The notes beneath the pieces are model-generated. The model did no database searches and was not told the DNA's origin. It saw only the letters and a list, made by a program, of their open reading frames with translations. Shown here piece after piece: positions 22,231-54,916 of a stretch of 64,000 nucleotides of DNA (position 1 is its first letter; each line of letters begins with the position of its first letter). Source of the stretch: Dichotomocladium elegans (taxonomy: Eukaryota; Mucoromycota; Mucoromycetes; Mucorales; Lichtheimiaceae); assembly GCA_025716815.1 (NCBI GenBank), contig JAIXMN010000012.1, positions 1 through 64,000 of the forward strand, given 5' to 3'. The translations under genes and the position numbers were made by a program.

Positions 22231-22450
22231 CTTTATTTTCAAAAATATTGATGTCGCACAAAATACAAAAAGAAAATGTCGCAGAGTTGTATAAAGTTGT
22301 CATATCAGTAGGTAGAAAGATTTCGCATCCATGGATTAAAACCTGTTAGTCTACAGAAAACACTACTCCATATGCTTTAACTTACGCTCAAGGATCCCGA
22401 AGGACCCACGAGTTATCCTGGGTAATCCCGGCGATAACCGGGACGGAGAG
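22231..22450 (-). ncRNA. candidate omega-RNA / right-end RNA module, copy 1
   Basis: On the minus strand, hairpin 1 is TCCCGG-TTATCG-CCGGGA (22443-22426), a linker TTACCCAGGATAACTCGT follows, and hairpin 2 is GGGTCC-TTCG-GGATCC (22407-22392). The loop-side GTTATC can pair with GATAAC of the linker. The remainder to 22231 matches the right end of element 2. Stem sequences differ from copy 2 at 54.5 kb but still pair, while loop and linker are identical at the core. Guide-scaffold function is inferred from the position next to Fanzor elements. Confidence 0.6.
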
Positions 22451-22964: not shown

Positions 22965-23117
22965 GCGGTGGCCCTTTATAGTGAACCCTCGGTTCCAAGA
23001 GATCGCATCACTATAACGAATTGGAATAAGTCCTATCTGGTAATTTTGGTCTGTATAACGTGTATCGCTATAATGAATTATCATTATAATGAATATCACT
23101 ATGAGGGGCGGCCACTG
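22965..23117. repeat. pogo-like MITE, copy 1
   Basis: A 153-bp element flanked by TA on both sides. The right end CGGCCACTG is the inverse of CAGTGGCCG; the left end is worn (GCGGTGGCCC). The interior consists of repeats such as ATCACTATAACGAATT and TATCATTATAATGAA. It is the same family as the copy at 51880-52067 and has the same position just upstream of the Fanzor coding sequence. Confidence 0.8.
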
Positions 23118-23284
23118 TAATTGATTTCCCGTTAATCCTACCATCTGAATACTTGTATGAGACTAGTCAAATAAGAAAGAATAGATAATATGTACTTCCG
23201 CGAAGAAAACGGCCTATTTACTCTCACTCGCACTTTTTCTTGGATACACTCGTTTCATCGATAACCTACTGTACTAAAACGATC

Positions 23285-24010
23285 CTTCCAAGTATGAACG
23301 TTCATCGACCTGCAAATTACGAAGGCTCCGAGATGGTTGTTGCTCACACCAATAACGCTCAAATGCGATTCGGCCAACACTTTTGGCCGGGCCATCATTG
23401 TCTTGCTGAATATTCGACAGCGGAAAGAGGAGCTCGAAGAGCAGTTGATCGGCCAAGGTCTGGACGCGACACAAATCAGTCAATGCATCCGAGAGACAAT
23501 CATTACACCCGCAACAACATTCAAACAGATTGTAGCTGGCCGAAACGTATCTAGAGACGACATCCCCGAAGACCCAGCTTATCTTTAGGAAGCTTTCGAT
23601 GCCTACACCAGTACCCACGCCTTTGACAACGATAGCATCTACTACGTTGCAAAGGTTCATTCAATCCAACATATGACAGTCTTTTACAGCTCGCTCTCAT
23701 TTCCGAGCGACTTCAGTTGCCTACATTTGCCTGTTTCCCTCTTCGTCGGTCATGTTCTCTGTCATACATAATGATTGACGCAAAAATCATATGGCAAAAC
23801 ATTCTGGGTCGCTCATGGGCCAAATAGGTTCCTTATCCTGGCGGATGGGATGAGGTCATCGATGTCCATTCCAAAGCTCTCAACCCTGCAGAAAATGGAG
23901 TACTTTCGATTTCGTGCTACACTTGAAACGGATGGCGTAGGAATCTCCATTATCAAGAAGAGAAGGGACAAGGACGCACCCCTAAGAACCGGAGCAGGTC
24001 CGAATGTGGA
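23285..24010 (+). pseudogene. Fanzor core relic (internal fragment)
   Basis: Several frames together match residues about 140-365 of the intact Fanzor at 52.3 kb. Landmarks are YEGSEM, NNAQMRFGQH, VLLNIRQRKEELEEQLIGQGL, RDDIPEDPAYL and ETDGVGISIIKK, against YEGTKI, NNVHMRFGQH, VILNLRQRKADRKRELIAQGL, REDINAEPGFL and HTDGVGVTVFKK. At least two frameshifts and stop codons break it. The N-terminal part, the RuvC catalytic residues and the zinc ribbon are absent. It ends where the transposase fragment begins on the opposite strand. Confidence 0.85.
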
Positions 24011-24029
24011 GGAGCAGTTGGATTCGCGG

Positions 24030-25322
24030 CTGTTCCCATTATGCCACTTAAATAAGCACATATGAGAATGAGAAACAAAACTTTTGAAATTGCTCAGCTT
24101 TAAGCCATTGGATGTTTCGCTGATTCGTGTCATCAACGTTTCGCTTTCCAAGAACCTATTGCATTTAACTTTGCTCTTGACCACTGACCAAAACTGTCCA
24201 ACAGGATTGAGTTCAGGCGAGTATGGTAGAAGATAAGCATATCGATATCTCGACACTCGATGTATTCACAGATATCCTGAGCCGTATGGATAGGTGCATT
24301 ATCCATTACCAAACAATGGCCCTTCATATATTCATACTTATCCGTCTCGTCCATTGTTACCTTATGGAAGCTGAGATGATGTCCAGTTGCAGTTCCTCTG
24401 CGCGCAACTCCAGATTGACCTGTCCTCTCTCTATTCTTGGTTGATGGCTGCGGGAGTCTCAAGCTACATTTAGTGATCCCTGATGCTGAGATTGCTCCCA
24501 AGATTGTGGTTGTCTTTGCTCTTGTCTTTGGTATTGTGACCACAGCAGGGGTCCCTTTCTTGGACCATGCTATGATGCGTTTCATATTAATATGGAATCC
24601 AGACTCATCAAGAAAAACGCAGTTTTTTTCTAAAGTCGATGGCGTCCCTGTCCCATCTGCACACCCAGCCAAAGTGCTCTTGGATCTTCGCAGCACTATT
24701 CCTGTCTACAGGCTGAAACAGAGCCATTTTTAAATGACAAGCTGCATTTGTTTTCCGTAAATCGATGGAGCGTCGGTTTAGATACTTTGAGACCCTCAAA
24801 TCTCTGGAGGAGTTGCTCCCATCATCTCATCTAGGACAATCGATGGATTCTCATCAACGATTCTAAAATAACACTCTTATACTCTTCATTGAGAATACAC
24901 CAACGATCCCTCGCGCTAGGTTTCTTGAAGATGCTATCAGGGTCCTTTTCGTACTGTAATGCCCATCGCTGGGCAAAACGAACATGGACTCCTAGCTGTT
25001 TTACAGCAGCTGATGCACTCAAGACATTCTCATACGTCCGTTTGAAAAATCTGACCTTGCCTTGGGCAGTGTACGCTGTGTAACTGCGCTTGATCTCCGC
25101 TTCTTTCATCCTAATGTCTGTATCCTTTCGCGTGGTAATAAGAGCAAAGTTATCTCTGCAAGATATGCTGCGCAGATATTCAGTACGAGAACAAACGTAT
25201 TGCAGAGAGTACGTTTCTTCATCAACAACATAGTCCATAGGTACAGGACAGTCACGCTCATCAACAACATGACCTTGGCCATCGTAGTAGAAAGTAAAAG
25301 TGTATAAAGGAGAAAGAATCAA
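24030..25322 (-). pseudogene. Tc1/mariner-IS630-like DDE transposase, broken
   Basis: Four overlapping minus-strand frames form one transposase: an N-terminal region with FYYDGQGHV and a helix-turn-helix-like RFAQRWALQYEKD, then the DDE_3 domain. The first Asp is in FLDESGFHINM and the second in LVMDNAPIH. In the third motif the expected NPxE reads NPVGQFW, so the last acidic residue appears replaced by Gly. Frameshifts near 24.8, 24.6 and 24.2 kb make it inactive. Known relatives cut at TA sites, which fits the TA next to both element ends. Its N-terminal third recurs at 51.0-51.6 kb. Confidence 0.85.
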
Positions 25323-25671
25323 AAGGACAAATTTTTATGGTGATGGATTTGCCCAAGTGATCCTGAGACTTTGGAACTGGCAGGGGTGCGACTTTTTTGA
25401 TTTTGCGCAAAATAGTGTATGCCTGCTAGCGCAATAAAAACCAAAGTCCGCATGTGCAACGCCATCCAACCTCCCACCCCCGCACTCACGCTAGCAAAAG
25501 TGAAAAAAGGAAAAGGAAAAAAAGCAAAGGATCACTCTCCATCAGGAAAACAATAACGAAAGGAAAAGCAAAACTCCTCCTAGCAAAAGCTGTTTACCGC
25601 AATCTCACAAGCAGCAGCTTCATCTCATCCTACTCCGCTGATCTTCATCTCTCTCTTTTTATTTTCCAACC

Positions 25672-47169: not shown

Positions 47170-49159
47170 ATGTCTCATGTAAGCGAAAGCGCTTCATTTG
47201 GTCATCATGGCATTTGACAATTCTCTAGAGACTCGGTGGTCGCAGAAAAAATGTCAAAAAGGGATTTCAGTTCACCTTGATGGTTGTTGGTAAATTTCGA
47301 GAGATTTATTCTTCCTTCCATTCATTTTTCGCTCATTAAATCGCGTTTTTCCACCACAAAAAGGTGCTTCGGGCGTAGGCCGCACAACATTCATCAATAC
47401 GCTTTGCAACTCGAATGTGCTTGCTAAGAAGGTGTGCGATAATCCAGAGGAGGCTCACAATGAAGAGGGCATTACTATCAAGCCCATCTCTGTCGGTGAG
47501 TCATGGACGGGATATATACTGTTGCTTTCTATATGCTCATCACAAAGGCCTGTACGTACACACAATCATACGCTTCTCGTTTTTTGAAACCAATGCTTTT
47601 AGAGTTGGACGAGGATGGTGTGCGGTAAGGGGACGGGCGAGCGGAGGAAAGGGGAAAGGGAGGGGAAAGGAGGAGATAAACGAAACGAAATCAGGGATTG
47701 ACAACTTTCCCCTATTTATGCATCTTCTCTTCTGCCTTTCCCTCCGAAACAGAATCTCGCTCACCATTGTCGATACTCCGGGCTTTGGTGACAATATTGA
47801 CAATGAGCAATGGTAGAAAAGCATGCCAGTCATCAGATGATGCTAGCTCGGATACTGACCTTATATATCTATGTTTCTCAAGTTTCCAAGAGATCGTGGG
47901 CTATCTGGAGCGCCAATACGATGATATTCTTGCAGAAGAGTCCCGCATCAAGCGAAACCCTCGTTTCCGTGATAACCGTGTCCATGCACTCTTATATTTT
48001 ATCTCACCGACGGGTCATGCGTAAGTCGATGGTCGGGAAGGCGAGGTCTCTACTACGAAACATTCTGACGGTCCCCTAAAATATAGGCTTCGTGAAATCG
48101 ATATAGAAACTATGCGTCGCCTCAGCCCGCGTGTTAATGTCATTCCTGTCGTCGGCCGTGCAGATTCGCTTACACCTTTTGAGCTAAAAGAATTTAAACG
48201 ACGTGTAAGAATATGCAGCACAAACACACGCGACATGCATGCCTTATAATCTCGCCTTTTCAAATCAGATCATGGAAGATATTGAGCATTATAACATCCC
48301 AATCTACAACTTCCCTTACGATATCGAAGAGGATGATGAAGACACGGTAGAAGAAAACAGTGAGCTCAGAGCGCTATTACCATTTGCTATCATTGGCAGC
48401 GATGAGGAAATTACAGTGGATGGCCGTACCGTTCGCGGCCGCCAATACCCATGGGGCGCGGTGGAAGGTGAAGAGAGTTATCTGAGCTTTTTTCTTATTC
48501 TGATCTATATCTCCCAATTCAGTTGATAACCCTCAGCACTCGGACTTTGCTCGTCTTCGATCTGCGTTGCTTAGGTATGAAAGCACCCCGCTCCCCTGGC
48601 CTTCACACTCTACCAACTCAGCGCTAACATTACGTACACCGCAACTCATGCGAAACCCTCGACTCTATAACTTTTTTTTTCTTTTGTGCAACCCTCTAAG
48701 CTCGCATTTGCAGGATCTCAAAGAGATCACGCACGATTTCTTGTACGAGAATTACCGTACCGAGAAACTCAGCCGCACTGCGAGTGGAGGAGGAAACGGT
48801 GGCAACGGCGCCGAGATAGAGTACGTTTTGATCTCTCTGTCTGAATCAGAAGACCATTTCTAACCATGAAATGTGTCATCATTTTTCCAGTGAAGGGGCG
48901 ATTCATGCAGAAGACATGGCTAGTCAGACAGTCAGACTCAAGGAAGAGCAATTACGAAAGGAGGAGGAAAAGGTAGCGTTGGACAAAGAGAAGGCAAGGA
49001 TAGTGCTACAAACTAACTCCCAACTCCGCAAAGCTCCGCGATATTGAGCTCAAAGTCCAGCGCGAGATCCAAGAGAAGCGAGCAGAACTCTTGAGCAAAG
49101 AAGAGGCCTTGCGCAGTCTCGAGTCGAGATTAGCACAGGCACAAATTGCCGATGCCTAA
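47170..49159 (+). CDS. CDC11: septin, Cdc11-type
   Basis: Twelve exons starting with a 9-nt ATG exon (47170-47178, 47229-47289, 47364-47495, 47603-47624, 47753-47812, 47883-48020, 48087-48204, 48269-48467, 48523-48574, 48701-48820, 48891-48972, 49034-49159) give 372 residues. Septins form filaments at the cell cortex and septa. The P-loop reads GASGVGRTTF with Arg in place of Lys, a known trait of Cdc11-type septins. DTPGFGDNIDNE, GRADSLTPFELKEFKRR and the septin unique element (PYDIEEDDEDTVEENSELR onward) also fit Cdc11. A C-terminal coiled coil starts near residue 300. The last intron is uncertain: a GT donor at 48973 or a GC donor closer to the acceptor would both keep frame, the latter adding ten residues. 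Confidence 0.92.
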
Positions 49160-50803: not shown

Positions 50804-51029
50804 ATGAATGAACACGGCTATAGCCACTATCTACTTGTTTATCGAGATTAATCTGTTGTTTGTATGGTAATCTATTCAGTTTTATATACCATTTTTCAAA
50901 ATCAAAGTCGCACCCTGCCAGTTTTGAAGTCGCAGGATCGCAAAAATACAAATCGCATTTTTGTCCGGAAATCTTACCCGTGATGACAAAGCAAAAGTCG
51001 CATACGTACACGGAAAGATGTCGCAAATC

Positions 51030-51600
51030 CATCTCATCCTTATGACTCTTTCTCTTTATAAACTTTTACATTTTGAAATGAGCAATCTATTATTTTACAA
51101 CGATGGTCAAGGTCATGTCGCTGATGAGGAAATGTACTCACTTCAATCCGTTTGTTCTTACACTGAATATCTGTGTAGCATATCGTGCAAAGATAACTCT
51201 GAGTTTACTCTCACACACATTCCCAAGCGAAAGGATACATACATTCGGATGAAAGAAGCGGGGATCAAGGGCAGTTACACAGCATGCACTGATCAAGGCA
51301 AGGTCAGAATGTTTCAAACTGGTGTTTGAGGAGGTATTGAGTGCATCAGCTGCAGCAAAACAGCTAGGACTCCATGTTCGTTCAGCACAGCGATGGGCAT
51401 TACAGTAAGAAAAGGATCCTGACAGCATTTTAAGAAACGTAGAAGCAGGGGGCCGATCGTGTATTCTCAATGAAGAGCATATCGAGAAGACTAAGTTTAT
51501 TCTTGGAAAGAACAAAGAACTATCAGAGTGTGCTTTCTTTGTCAATGAGCCATTTAGCCTGGGGATTGTAACTCCGAAGCTGGTTATCAAATGGAATAAT
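51030..51600 (+). pseudogene. transposase N-terminal relic
   Basis: Broken frames repeat the N-terminus of the transposase at 25.3 kb. FYNDGQGHVADEEMYSL matches FYYDGQGHV plus DEETYSL; RKDTYIRMKEAGIKGSYTA matches RKDTDIRMKEAEIKRSYTA. EVLSASAAAKQLGLHVRSAQRWALQ, split by a frameshift near 51330, also corresponds. A stop follows QRWALQ. The catalytic DDE domain is missing; sequence after about 51600 is no longer recognisable until the MITE. Confidence 0.85.
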
Positions 51601-51879
51601 GAAGTAATGGCTTTCAGGAGACTCCTGTGTTCTCATTGTAATATTCAGAGAAATTATTCATTATGTACCTACACTTTCTGAACGTATGGATAAGGATGAC
51701 AGCAGTGTCGTGTTTTGTTGTGTTGTAAGAGACTGAGAGAGTACGAAAAGAAGTACAATCTTCCTACACTACACAAGTGCCGGATATGTATCGGATTATT
51801 CTTGAGATGATCTCTTGGAATTACTTGTTGGAATTGTTTGGGATTTCATTGTTGATTTCAGACCGCCCTCACGTCGATA

Positions 51880-52067
51880 CAGTGGCCGCCCCTTATAGTT
51901 ATACCCTCGGTCCCAGGAAATCGCATCACTATAATGAGTTATCACTATAATGAATTATCACTATAATGAATTGGAATAAGCCCTACCTGGCAATTTTGTC
52001 CTTCATAAAGTGTATCGCTATAACGAATTATCATTATAATGAATATCACTATAACGAGCGGCCACTG
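51880..52067. repeat. pogo-like MITE, copy 2
   Basis: A 188-bp non-coding element flanked by TA (51878-51879 and 52068-52069). Its terminal inverted repeats are CAGTGGCCGCCCCTTATAGT and, inverted from the other end, CAGTGGCCGCTCGTTATAGT. The interior has repeated ATCACTATAATGAATT units. Ends starting CAGTGG and a TA duplication are typical of the pogo/Tigger branch of Tc1-mariner elements. Confidence 0.88.
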
Positions 52068-52133
52068 TAAAACCTCATTAAAGAACCCAGTGGGAAAAAG
52101 AAAAACACTGTGGAGATGGATCATTGCTGACAC

Positions 52134-52141
52134 TATAAATA
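52134..52141 (+). promoter_or_regulatory. TATA box of the Fanzor gene
   Basis: TATAAATA in CACTATAAATAGTG, 172 bp upstream of the Fanzor start and 67 bp downstream of the MITE. The best core promoter candidate in the element. Confidence 0.5.
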
Positions 52142-52312
52142 GTGATGCTCAAGCAAGCTGTCCCTTTCCATTATCCACATACAAAACTAGAGCCCATTCA
52201 GCCTACAGAAAATAACACAGCACCACATTTACGGTTGAAAGGTAATACGGCCGCTTTCATACTCGGCTCTGCGATACTAAGAAATAATATACCCTAGGTC
52301 TTCACCCACCAA

Positions 52313-54511
52313 ATGGCCCAACCCCACCGCCCCGTCATTCCCGAAGGCATGCGCACTGGCCACAGCATTGACCGCACTGGCCGTATAATTGGGGTGAAAT
52401 CGTCCATACGGGGCATCGGCTGGCGACAGCAGTACCGTGAACGTCTGTATCAGTTGGTTGACCTTGTCCACAACACCACAACACAGGCGTACGCGTTCGC
52501 CAAATATATTTTCATCAACGAGGCAGCGCGCGATCCAACTTTTAACATCCAGGAAAACATCACGGAGAAGTTCTTTTCAGAAGTTTGGCTCTCCATGGTT
52601 AACAAAGCCGAACGCCGCACCCAAGGTGAAACTGCCCGCATCCGAGAACTAATTAACCGCCACAAGGATGAGTACCTTCGGATATCCGGATACGACAGGC
52701 CTGCGTTCCCTTATTCCCAGCAATGTTCTTCTTACGAAGGCACCAAGATTTATACTGCTTACGTGAATAATGTCCACATGCGGTTCGGGCAACACCTTCG
52801 GCGTGTCATCAATGTCATCCTGAATCTTCGTCAGCGAAAAGCCGACCGCAAGCGAGAGTTAATCGCACAGGGCCTAAGCCCCGATCAAGTACGCCAGGAC
52901 CTTTATGAAACCATCACCCGGCATGCCACAGGATTCAAGCTAGCAATTGCCCGTCGAGGTGTTTTGAGGGAAGACATTAACGCCGAACCTGGATTTCTTC
53001 GGGAAGCATACGATATCCTACAACCTGTCTTAAACGCTTACCCCCGAAACCACCAATTCCAACACCAGAGTATCTATTACGACGCCAAGGCCAATCCTGT
53101 TAAGCATTTCAACGCCTTCTTCCAGCTTGCACGCGTTTGTCAACAGAACGGAATACGCGGATTCAACTGTTTTCCACTTCGTCGCTCGTGGTCACCATGC
53201 TACATGGAGATCGATACGAAAATCCTTTGCTACCATATCCTGGGGTGCAAAATGGAATCCCACACAAGCAATATGGAGTACTGGAGACGTGTTGTAAACC
53301 TGAAATCAAGAGCTTTCAAACCCCAAGAATCCGAGCTGCTCCAATTCCGTGGGACTATTCACACTGACGGCGTCGGTGTTACTGTGTTCAAGAAGACAAA
53401 TGGCCTTCAATCGGGTTTCGGACAGAGATTTGGCATCCAGAGCGAAGATATCGAATACGTCACCCCACAGATACTCCGGAACGAAGACTATAGAGGACAA
53501 TGGGTCACCATTGATCCTGGCAGAAGGGACCTGTTGTATTGCGTTCATGAGAACTCGTCACCCGACAACCACCAGACCTTCCGATATACAAAGCAGCTTC
53601 AAGATCATACACGGAAGACCAAACGGTACCGCAGACTCCGAGAACGACTCAAGTTAGAGCGACCCGAGGTCGCGTTGGCTGAGCAGAATCTATCTCAATT
53701 TCAAAGTCATACGCTTTCCGTGCCCAACTACGACGGATACCTCGCCGCCAAGAATCGGGTCTCTGTAGTTCTCAAGTCTTTCTACGCGACAACCACTACG
53801 AACCACCCGAACCCGCAATTTCTTTTTCGAAAACTTCGCCTGTCAGCGTTTTACAAGAAGCAGCAAGCAGATGAAAAGCTTCTCGATTCTTTGAATGCGA
53901 AGTTTGGCAGTAGATCCGTTTTCGTGATGGGAAATTGGTCTGCGCCGCATACAAGATATCACGAGCCTATCCGTGGTGTCGGCTTCCGGCGGCTGTTGAA
54001 GAAGAACAATTGCAATATTTATTTGGTCGACGAGTACAAGACAAGCAAGTGCTGCCCTGTATGTGACAATGAAAGCCTTGCTACCTTTAAAATGGTTCCT
54101 AATCCACGCCCATATCGACGACCCGACAATCCGCTCACGATCTGCCATGGCCTGCTACGGTATGAAGGACGGGCATGTTGTGTTATACTTCCAAAAGATT
54201 ATAATACAGTATTTTGATGTTTCAATAGATGCACAAATCAAAACTGTACAGCAGGCATGGCAGAGGGTGTTTGTCAACCAAGGTTATGGAACCGGGATCT
54301 GGCGGCGGCTCTCAACATGCATCATATCCTCCGGGGTCTTCGGGAAGATGGTATCATCCCAGCAAGGTTCCAGAGAAGAAATGCTGCACAAGCATCCGCA
54401 GCTGGTGGAAGACCACACTCACCTGAACCAGAGCAGCGCAGCGTGAGACCACGACGGGCAAGGCCAGGAAGGCCACGAGGTGCACGCTCTGGCGGGTCGA
54501 GACGACCGTAA
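52313..54511 (+). CDS. Fanzor RNA-guided nuclease (eukaryotic TnpB homologue)
   Basis: Two exons (52313-54159 and 54229-54511) give 709 residues. The family is known: Fanzors are transposon-encoded eukaryotic relatives of TnpB and Cas12 that cut DNA guided by an omega RNA. Visible here: a long N-terminal half with Arg-rich helices (about 1-395), RuvC-I Asp401 in WVTIDPGRRDLLY, candidate catalytic Glu574 in LVDEYKTSK directly before the zinc ribbon, ribbon cysteines 581 and 584 (CPVC), then 611, 617 and 622 (CHGLLRCTNQNC), and RuvC-III Asp639 in WNRDLAAALNM. The tail after about 685 is rich in Arg, Pro and Gly and may bind nucleic acid or enter the nucleus. The intron splits the codon of Arg616 inside the zinc ribbon; unspliced RNA would stop at 54217 without Asp639. 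No frameshift is present, so it may be active. Confidence 0.9.
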
Positions 54512-54524
54512 CCCCAACCAAGAA

Positions 54525-54768
54525 TTTTCCGCGTCAGTTATCGCTGACGCACCCAGGATAACCACAGCCCTTCGGGGCAAGCCCCCTTCCTTTGGAAGGA
54601 CGGTGTGTTGTAAGTCAACGGGATTGGAGAAGGCGTAGTGTTTTCTGCTGACTAACAGGGTTTCATCCATGGATGCGAAATCTTTTTACCTATTGATACG
54701 ACAAATTTATATAATTCTATGCGACATTTTTCTTATCTTGTTTACGAAATTTATTTTTGAAAATAAAG
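54525..54768 (+). ncRNA. candidate omega RNA / right-end scaffold, copy 2
   Basis: It starts 14 bp after the Fanzor stop codon. Hairpin 1 is GCGTCAG-TTATCG-CTGACGC (54531-54550). The linker ACCCAGGATAACCACA follows. Hairpin 2 is GCCC-TTCG-GGGC (54567-54578), and hairpin 3 CCTTCC-TTT-GGAAGG (54585-54599). GTTATC in loop 1 can pair with GATAAC of the linker. From about 54640 to the end, sequence shared by three copies follows (TGACTAACAGG, ATCCATGGATGCGAAATC). In TnpB and Fanzor systems the scaffold is transcribed from the 3' end of the gene to the element's right end and the guide comes from the flank, which would be the DNA after 54768. Confidence 0.65.
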
Positions 54769-54916
54769 TATACCGACCATAAAGTTTGCTATCCCCTCTT
54801 CAAAAGGCGACTACCCATTCCAACAAATGCATATATTACATCATCGATAGGAAATGCCATATAGAGGAGTTGAAGTAGATGAACGATAAAATAATACATG
54901 ATAGGGGGGGGAGAAT

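Follow-up and report, generated by a model that had tools for sequence, protein, structure and literature searches.

The right end of a Tc1/mariner-like transposon in Dichotomocladium elegans carries a module of a 7-bp hairpin (SL1), a linker and a second hairpin (SL2) that is probably the scaffold of a Fanzor1 omega RNA, a reading given a rough probability of 0.8. Fanzor proteins are eukaryotic relatives of CRISPR nucleases, and the assignment draws on the position of the module by the Fanzor gene, the relationship of the encoded protein to Parasitella PpFz1, and the size and shape of the module. SL1 itself is strongly supported as a real RNA-level stem kept by compensatory change. As in OMEGA systems generally, the putative structured module lies at a transposon right end beside a nuclease gene; SL1, linker and SL2 would bind Fanzor, while the DNA flanking the TA target site would supply the guide, from a few to about 20 nt long. 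The Mucoromycota Fanzor1 group would thereby gain a covariation-supported guide-RNA stem, in a genome with hundreds of copies.

Two copies of the element lie in the window, the whole 64,000-nucleotide stretch that was analysed. Copy 1 (family A) spans 50889..54768 (+) at a TA target site, with an approximate left end whose TIR was placed by eye. Comparison of copies sets its right boundary at 54768, where it ends ...TTGAAAATAAAG|TA; the boundary is common to the copies compared, flanking DNA diverges right after AAAG|TA, and the TA target site (54769..54770, +) is followed from 54771 by the flank that would act as the predicted guide. Copy 2 (family B) contains a decayed Tc1/mariner-like transposase in pieces (23816..25334, -), matching Pfam DDE_3 with E values of 1.3e-12 (above the cutoff) and 3.1e-5 (below it), and a decayed Fanzor relic (approximately 23387..23959, +; tblastn on locus L031, 33% identity) that runs opposite to the SL1 of this copy. 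A possible transposase helix-turn-helix remnant in copy 1 (51259..51408, +) matches HTH_23 weakly, below the cutoff (E 0.0076), and is the repeat partner of copy 2 sequence. The TA at the right ends, the ends to which this observation applies, and the DDE_3 transposase of copy 2 agree with a Tc1/mariner assignment. Tc1/mariner elements with a TA target site, a mariner-type transposase and Fanzor1 are described in the available text of Bao and Jurka 2013 (PMC3627910), whereas the zygomycete examples given there (ROr-4, PBl-3 and MCi-4) are MuDR-type with a 9-bp TSD, unlike the elements here. The genome (39.4 Mb, 122 contigs) holds 361 candidates for the copy 1 right end and 267 for that of copy 2, with 40 of each scored, and a search of the window with Rfam at gathering thresholds returned 0 families.

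The Fanzor gene of copy 1 consists of exon 1 (52313..54159, +), a predicted intron (54160..54228, +; GTATGA...AATAG) and exon 2 (54229..54511, +; stop codon TAA at 54509-54511), which join into a 709-aa frame (HGLLRCTNQNC...NRDLAAALN) free of internal stops. The closest solved relative found by phmmer against the PDB is PpFz1 (E 9.5e-120, exon 1), with SpuFz1 at E 1.7e-43, and the best-scoring protein relative, among 112 proteins at E up to 1e-30, is from Mucor mucedo (47% identical). The published Fanzor1 pattern, D-X(125,275)-[TS][TS]xx-C4 zinc finger-X(5,50)-RD in the accessible part of PMC3627910, is present as D401 (of DPGRRD), TSKCCPVC at 577 and RD at 638, with spacing judged by eye, and the predicted protein is a Fanzor1 by homology and motif pattern. 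In 22 of the 30 family A loci L001-L030, the exon 2 frame stays open until roughly where its stop is expected. At least 79 Fanzor matches occur in this genome (863 candidates, 70 scored), including those of family C, which are 51-57% identical.

SL1 of copy 1 (54531..54550, +) reads GCGTCAG-TTATCG-CTGACGC, letters and place as given in a preliminary description of this DNA, which also reported the hairpin in copy 2 and was right that the loop there is the same; the copy 2 stem (22425..22444, -) is one pair longer than the 22443-22426 that it listed. This stem, GTCCCGG/CCGGGAT, counts 7 bp, the terminal one a G-U; in most rows of family B the 3' strand reads CCGGGAC. Six families were distinguished, with stems GCGTCAG/CTGACGC (A), GTCCCGG/CCGGGAC (B), GTGTCGG/CCGGCAC (C), GC-CATGG/CCATG-T-GC and also CGCGG/CCGCG and CGTGG/CCACG (D), GGCCCTG/CAGGGCT (E) and GTCCTGG/CCAGGAC (F). 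The stem has 7 bp in typical rows of A, B, C (one U-G), E (one or two G-U) and F, and 7 bp with one bulge in D. The A and B loci L001-L060 were collected by DNA similarity and family C downstream of its Fanzor genes, in both cases with loop and linker not fixed; L061-L090 were found with loop and linker fixed and the SL1 3' strand inside an N gap (14 of these 30 rows repeat an earlier locus), family D with TCCG, the loop and GGATA fixed, and families E and F with TCCG and the loop fixed, the SL1 3' strand being free in D, E and F. The loop varies in two loci of L001-L060 (TTATTG in L048 and L057). The loop-and-linker pattern TTATCN{6,16}ACCCAGGATAA has 134 exact matches in the genome versus 0 for the reversed control, and TCCGN6TTATCG has 349 versus 59.

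Covariation at SL1 scored 0.485 against 0.185 for shuffled data in 35 distinct segments from 104 oriented rows, and 0.551 against 0.195 in an alignment of 49 distinct rows of families A-F, where 89.8% of cells were paired and slid partners scored at most 0.129; these shuffle figures are not probabilities, because the rows are related. The 14 rows added to the alignment were picked by the author by 5' strand and loop from 100 places listed of the 349; six of them pair 7/7, two pair 7/7 with the D-type bulge and six pair 6/7. For the five inner pairs, pairing is seen in 96.3% of cells, and both sides have changed in five of the seven pairs. Counts of double-change pairs alone are not above shuffles for SL1 (5 versus 4.5), and the stronger covariation point is the variety of pair types found at columns 8-21 and 10-19. 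The selected RNA structure that the preliminary description had read from compensatory change in two copies is thus strongly supported for SL1.

Two other accounts of the conserved stem bear on the same data. That the inverted repeat is kept as DNA, for transposase binding or as a cruciform at the transposon end, is very improbable: SL1 does lie no more than 250 bp from the end and close to subterminal repeats similar to ones at the left end, but a DNA-binding site would be expected to preserve the sequence of its stem, whereas here the pairs are rewritten and the loop is fixed, and SL1 was seen at one end and in one orientation in the copies read. Still further down the scale is the idea that the region encodes a peptide, prompted by an open frame through SL1 in the family B consensus (by eye), since the stem changes keep pairing rather than codons, the three frames of copy 1 have stops around SL1 or, in two frames, just after it, and the frame with an ATG on which that idea depends is broken in copy 2.

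Between the two hairpins lies a linker (54551..54566, +) that contains GGATAAC and could form a pseudoknot of 4-6 bp with loop 1. The linker core, ACCCAGGATAAC, is common to families A and B, which bears out the earlier observation that it is identical in both copies. GATA is present in 30/30 A and 28/30 B loci of L001-L060, one of the two remaining B loci having GGTA, which still pairs, and the other neither; it also occurs in 4/4 C, 3/6 E and 1/5 F rows, F having mostly CATA, and the D rows found without fixing the linker (n = 3) have GATA once and GGTA twice. The pseudoknot, loop UAUC with linker GAUA, is accordingly possible in most rows of A to D, in 3/6 of E and in 1/5 of F, and no covariation was found for it in the rows of families A-F because the SL1 loop hardly changes. 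The conserved pseudoknot proposed earlier is compatible with these rows, but covariation does not support it and it is weakened in F. As in IS607 TnpB and Fanzor2 reRNA, the loop of stem-loop 1 could pair with a later strand, which in the TnpB accounts available flanks the guide, whereas the partner here would be the linker, with no covariation; the consulted portion of PMC10711439 reports the pseudoknot absent from Fanzor1. SL2 follows in copy 1 (54567..54578, +) as GCCC-TTCG-GGGC, 4 bp with a UUCG loop, and in copy 2 (22392..22407, -) as GGGTCC-TTCG-GGATCC, in letters identical to those first described; in other families a hairpin with a different sequence can fold at this position (by eye). 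A third hairpin, SL3 (54585..54599, +; CCTTCC-TTT-GGAAGG), is seen in the rows of family A only.

The relation of SL1 to the Fanzor gene differs between families. SL1 begins 19 nt after the Fanzor stop in copy 1, with a sense Fanzor match upstream in all 30 family A loci L001-L030, and 6 nt after the stop in three of the four family C copies read. In family B, Fanzor lies within 1.5 kb in 14 of the loci L031-L060, antisense in all 14, and was found in none of the other 16. Among L061-L090, the B rows have it antisense in 10, sense in 1 (L081) and absent in 5, and the A rows sense in 13 and antisense in 1 (L084). The stem is thus kept where Fanzor points the other way, so SL1 is not merely a Fanzor 3'UTR element, and the same transposon lineage would have carried Fanzor in both orientations. 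By eye, the family B consensus of L031-L060 has, in the region some 180-320 nt upstream of SL1, a TATA-like box, TATAAATA, together with the intron-like GTATGA...CAACTAAC...TATAG, signals that suggest a guide RNA with its own spliced transcript. The fourth family C copy (L092, at G000:C40:584332-586643) has lost, through a deletion, the splice-like signals described below and most of the right-end zone; it was considered as a counterexample, an intact Fanzor without such signals, and rejected, since its exon 1 frame has no stop but its exon 2 has one, marking a broken copy.

In dimensions, the basis on which the RNAs were compared, the module resembles that of PpFz1, the closest solved Fanzor (PDB 9cf0-9cf3), whose 75-nt omega RNA has a 7-bp SL1, a 4-bp SL2 and a short scaffold according to the available text of PMC11423790, in which no intron-like separation is described; its guide segment is named from C50. 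In known Fanzor1 systems the scaffold continues into the transposon end (PMC10711439 and PMC10432273, in the parts accessible), whereas in copy 1 SL2 stops 190 nt short of the boundary and the module ends 159-190 nt before it. A scaffold reaching the boundary would exist here only if the RNA is spliced or the whole stretch is scaffold. SpuFz1 of Spizellomyces punctatus and its ghost elements are alike in having a right-end omega RNA and many copies, many without the gene, as far as the published descriptions available go, but its 75-nt scaffold lies directly at the IR, whereas a 159-nt intron-like stretch intervenes here.

That stretch opens with a 5' splice-site-like GTAAGT (54610..54615, +) and contains a branch-point-like GACTAAC (54650..54656, +), both conserved among copies. 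Exact GTAAGT is found in 40/44 A, 43/46 B, 3/4 C, 6/10 D and 3/5 F rows, and family E has GTGAGC in three of four long copies, with a consensus of GTGAGCC plus CTGCTAAC. A GACTAAC-type motif (GACTAAA in C) lies 32-41 nt past GTAAGT where detected in A-D, and CTAAC lies 42-44 nt past it in F, so that the consensus of all six families has a splice-like 5' motif and a CTAAC-type motif after the module. We take the CTAAC-type motif to be a branch point and GTAAGT a 5' site from the fungal splice consensus. The module, measured from SL1 to the 5' splice-like site, is longest in A (77-80 nt), followed by B (59), D (51-55) and C (39), and splicing at that site would therefore yield a scaffold of roughly PpFz1 size with the guide adjoining. 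An internal guide placed right after SL2 was rejected, since it would not fit ahead of the splice-like site in family C and the extra stretch of family A is a hairpin.

Past the branch motif, a zone of copy 1 with subterminal ACGACA-type repeats (54659..54768, +) is free of AG up to the terminal AAAG, and copy 2 has the same intron-like layout from GTAAGT (starting at 22385) to the terminal AAAG (22231), also with 0 AG in the zone (22231..22385, -). The AG-free zone measures 88-130 nt in the consensus or representative of five families, with 0 AG in the consensus of A, B and E and in representatives of C (L095) and D (L099 and L106), a count that leaves out the terminal AG and the AG touching the branch motif in A and B. 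Both branch point and terminus were found in 2 of the 10 D rows, which supplied the two D representatives, the other 8 not being measurable. Composition shuffles gave P values of 0.003 (A), 0.0055 (B), 0.03 (C), 0.015 and 0.029 (D) and 0.0001 (E), where the A-D zones are related rather than independent and the E zone, of different sequence, was examined after the idea had formed; AG is the lowest dinucleotide in the zone in each family tested (A-E). Among L001-L060, the zone is AG-free in 51 of 56 measurable copies, with one AG each in L022, L037, L040, L054 and L057, and is not measurable in L013, L024, L030 and L055. The four long E copies have 2, 1, 1 and 1 AG versus 6.7, 6.4, 6.5 and 3.9 expected from composition, each AG at a different place, as expected of decay; the zero for E thus belongs to its consensus, as no long E copy is AG-free. 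Among variants that recur in at least two of 66 distinct A and B copies, AG is created once versus 4.5 expected, a deficit that is only suggestive, and singleton variants (9 versus 11.4 expected) look neutral. No clear A-to-G bias was seen in the terminal motif genome-wide, with 175 intact, 14 at five AG-making sites and 9 at two others. The outward strand of the left end has 2 AG versus 7.3 expected in copy 1 and 9 versus 11.6 in copy 2, and with the copy 1 left end also AG-poor, motif composition explains part of the missing AG.

Together, GTAAGT, the branch motif and the AG-free run to the boundary suggest, without proof, an intron that ends at the transposon boundary. On this reading the intron would start with GTAAGT (54610), run for 159 nt to the terminal AAAG (54768) and have the boundary itself as its 3' splice site; the spliceosome would remove the subterminal repeats and TIR from the precursor and fuse the 39-80-nt scaffold to TA and flanking host DNA as guide. 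Each insertion would then make its own guide, and transposase sequences would stay out of the RNA. Such spliced attachment is put forward tentatively, from sequence patterns. Its terminal AAAG departs from YAG, families A and B have an AG directly abutting the branch motif, and the branch-to-AG distance of 78-134 nt in these two families is unusual. A heuristic list of introns in the window (30 entries, some by chance) has branch-to-AG distances of 0-38 nt, and the entries judged convincing have 9-19 nt, mostly to a YAG. The right-end stretch therefore matches a spliceosomal intron in 5' site and branch point but lies outside the usual spacing, and is proposed only to work like an intron. The pattern GTAAGT-CTAAC-YAG has 0 matches in the window; with CTGAC there are 2 (0.27 expected), at 48021 and 54610, the match at 54610 relying on the AG adjoining the branch motif.

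The preliminary description implied instead a continuous RNA from about 54520 through the boundary. Its reading as a Fanzor omega RNA is well supported by position, PpFz1 relationship, size and shape, and its end coordinate, 54768, is indeed the right boundary of the element, followed by TA, but the continuous extent to that position is doubtful, as the module ends at GTAAGT (54610) and 159 intron-like nt follow. An unspliced omega RNA of about 240 nt, running from SL1 through the TIR into the flank with the terminal AU palindrome by the TA as last stem, is likewise a tentative reading, and it and splicing are weighed about equally, splicing being the bolder. Other Fanzor1 scaffolds include TIR and TSD in the descriptions available, and the last 80 nt of copy 1 fold into a terminal hairpin; yet this RNA would exceed those of PpFz1 (75 nt), SpuFz1 (90 nt) and GtFz1 (150 nt) as given in the accessible text of PMC11423790, by eye L099 has an imperfect palindrome and E no apparent one, and the splice-like signals and missing AG would be left unexplained.

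The same signals could also belong to a plain 3'UTR intron, or reflect cleavage by the spliceosome with no ligation, as in fungal telomerase RNA, unrelated to a guide and leaving the hairpins in the mRNA or at a free 3' end. Fungal telomerase RNAs are described as structured RNAs that stop at a 5' splice site, beyond which lies a branch point, and a long distance from branch point to 3' site favours the first step only in S. pombe TER1 (PMC4299874, in the portion available), a point that speaks for cleavage; there the first step alone makes the end, whereas ligation to the flank would be needed here for the guide. This reading is unlikely, considering that the family C module ends at the 5' site with no room for a guide, that Fanzor is antisense where detected among the family B loci L031-L060 so that the module lies outside its 3'UTR, and that a kept loop with a rewritten stem points to a protein-bound RNA.

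If the guide is attached by splicing, the element would be using a new means of having both transposase-bound ends and a compact guide RNA. The open literature, at the level of titles and abstract openings and with subscription papers and bioRxiv outside its scope, yielded no description of a spliced omega RNA for Fanzor, and none was found on IStron, TnpB, guide RNA and splicing together, or on transposon-end introns. The main texts of PMC10432273 and PMC10711439 do not contain the word 'intron'.

Two further Fanzors, 49-52% identical, were noted in the genome (L093, L094, L098, L109 and L110). No TTATCG hairpin was found for them in a guessed 0.8-kb upstream stretch (L109, L110) or in downstream stretches of 0.4-0.5 kb (L093, L098, L094), and the sequence of another locus, L096, ends before its module. 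At the very end of the element, an AATAAA (54762-54767) is present in the A-E copies read; with the usual signal spacing, poly(A) cleavage might fall in the flank at about guide length. A 114-nt AT-rich repeat with CACTATAATGA units occurs at 23007-23120 and 51957-52070 of the window (89% alike), in both copies 5' of the Fanzor reading direction, and is perhaps promoter DNA or another small repeat.
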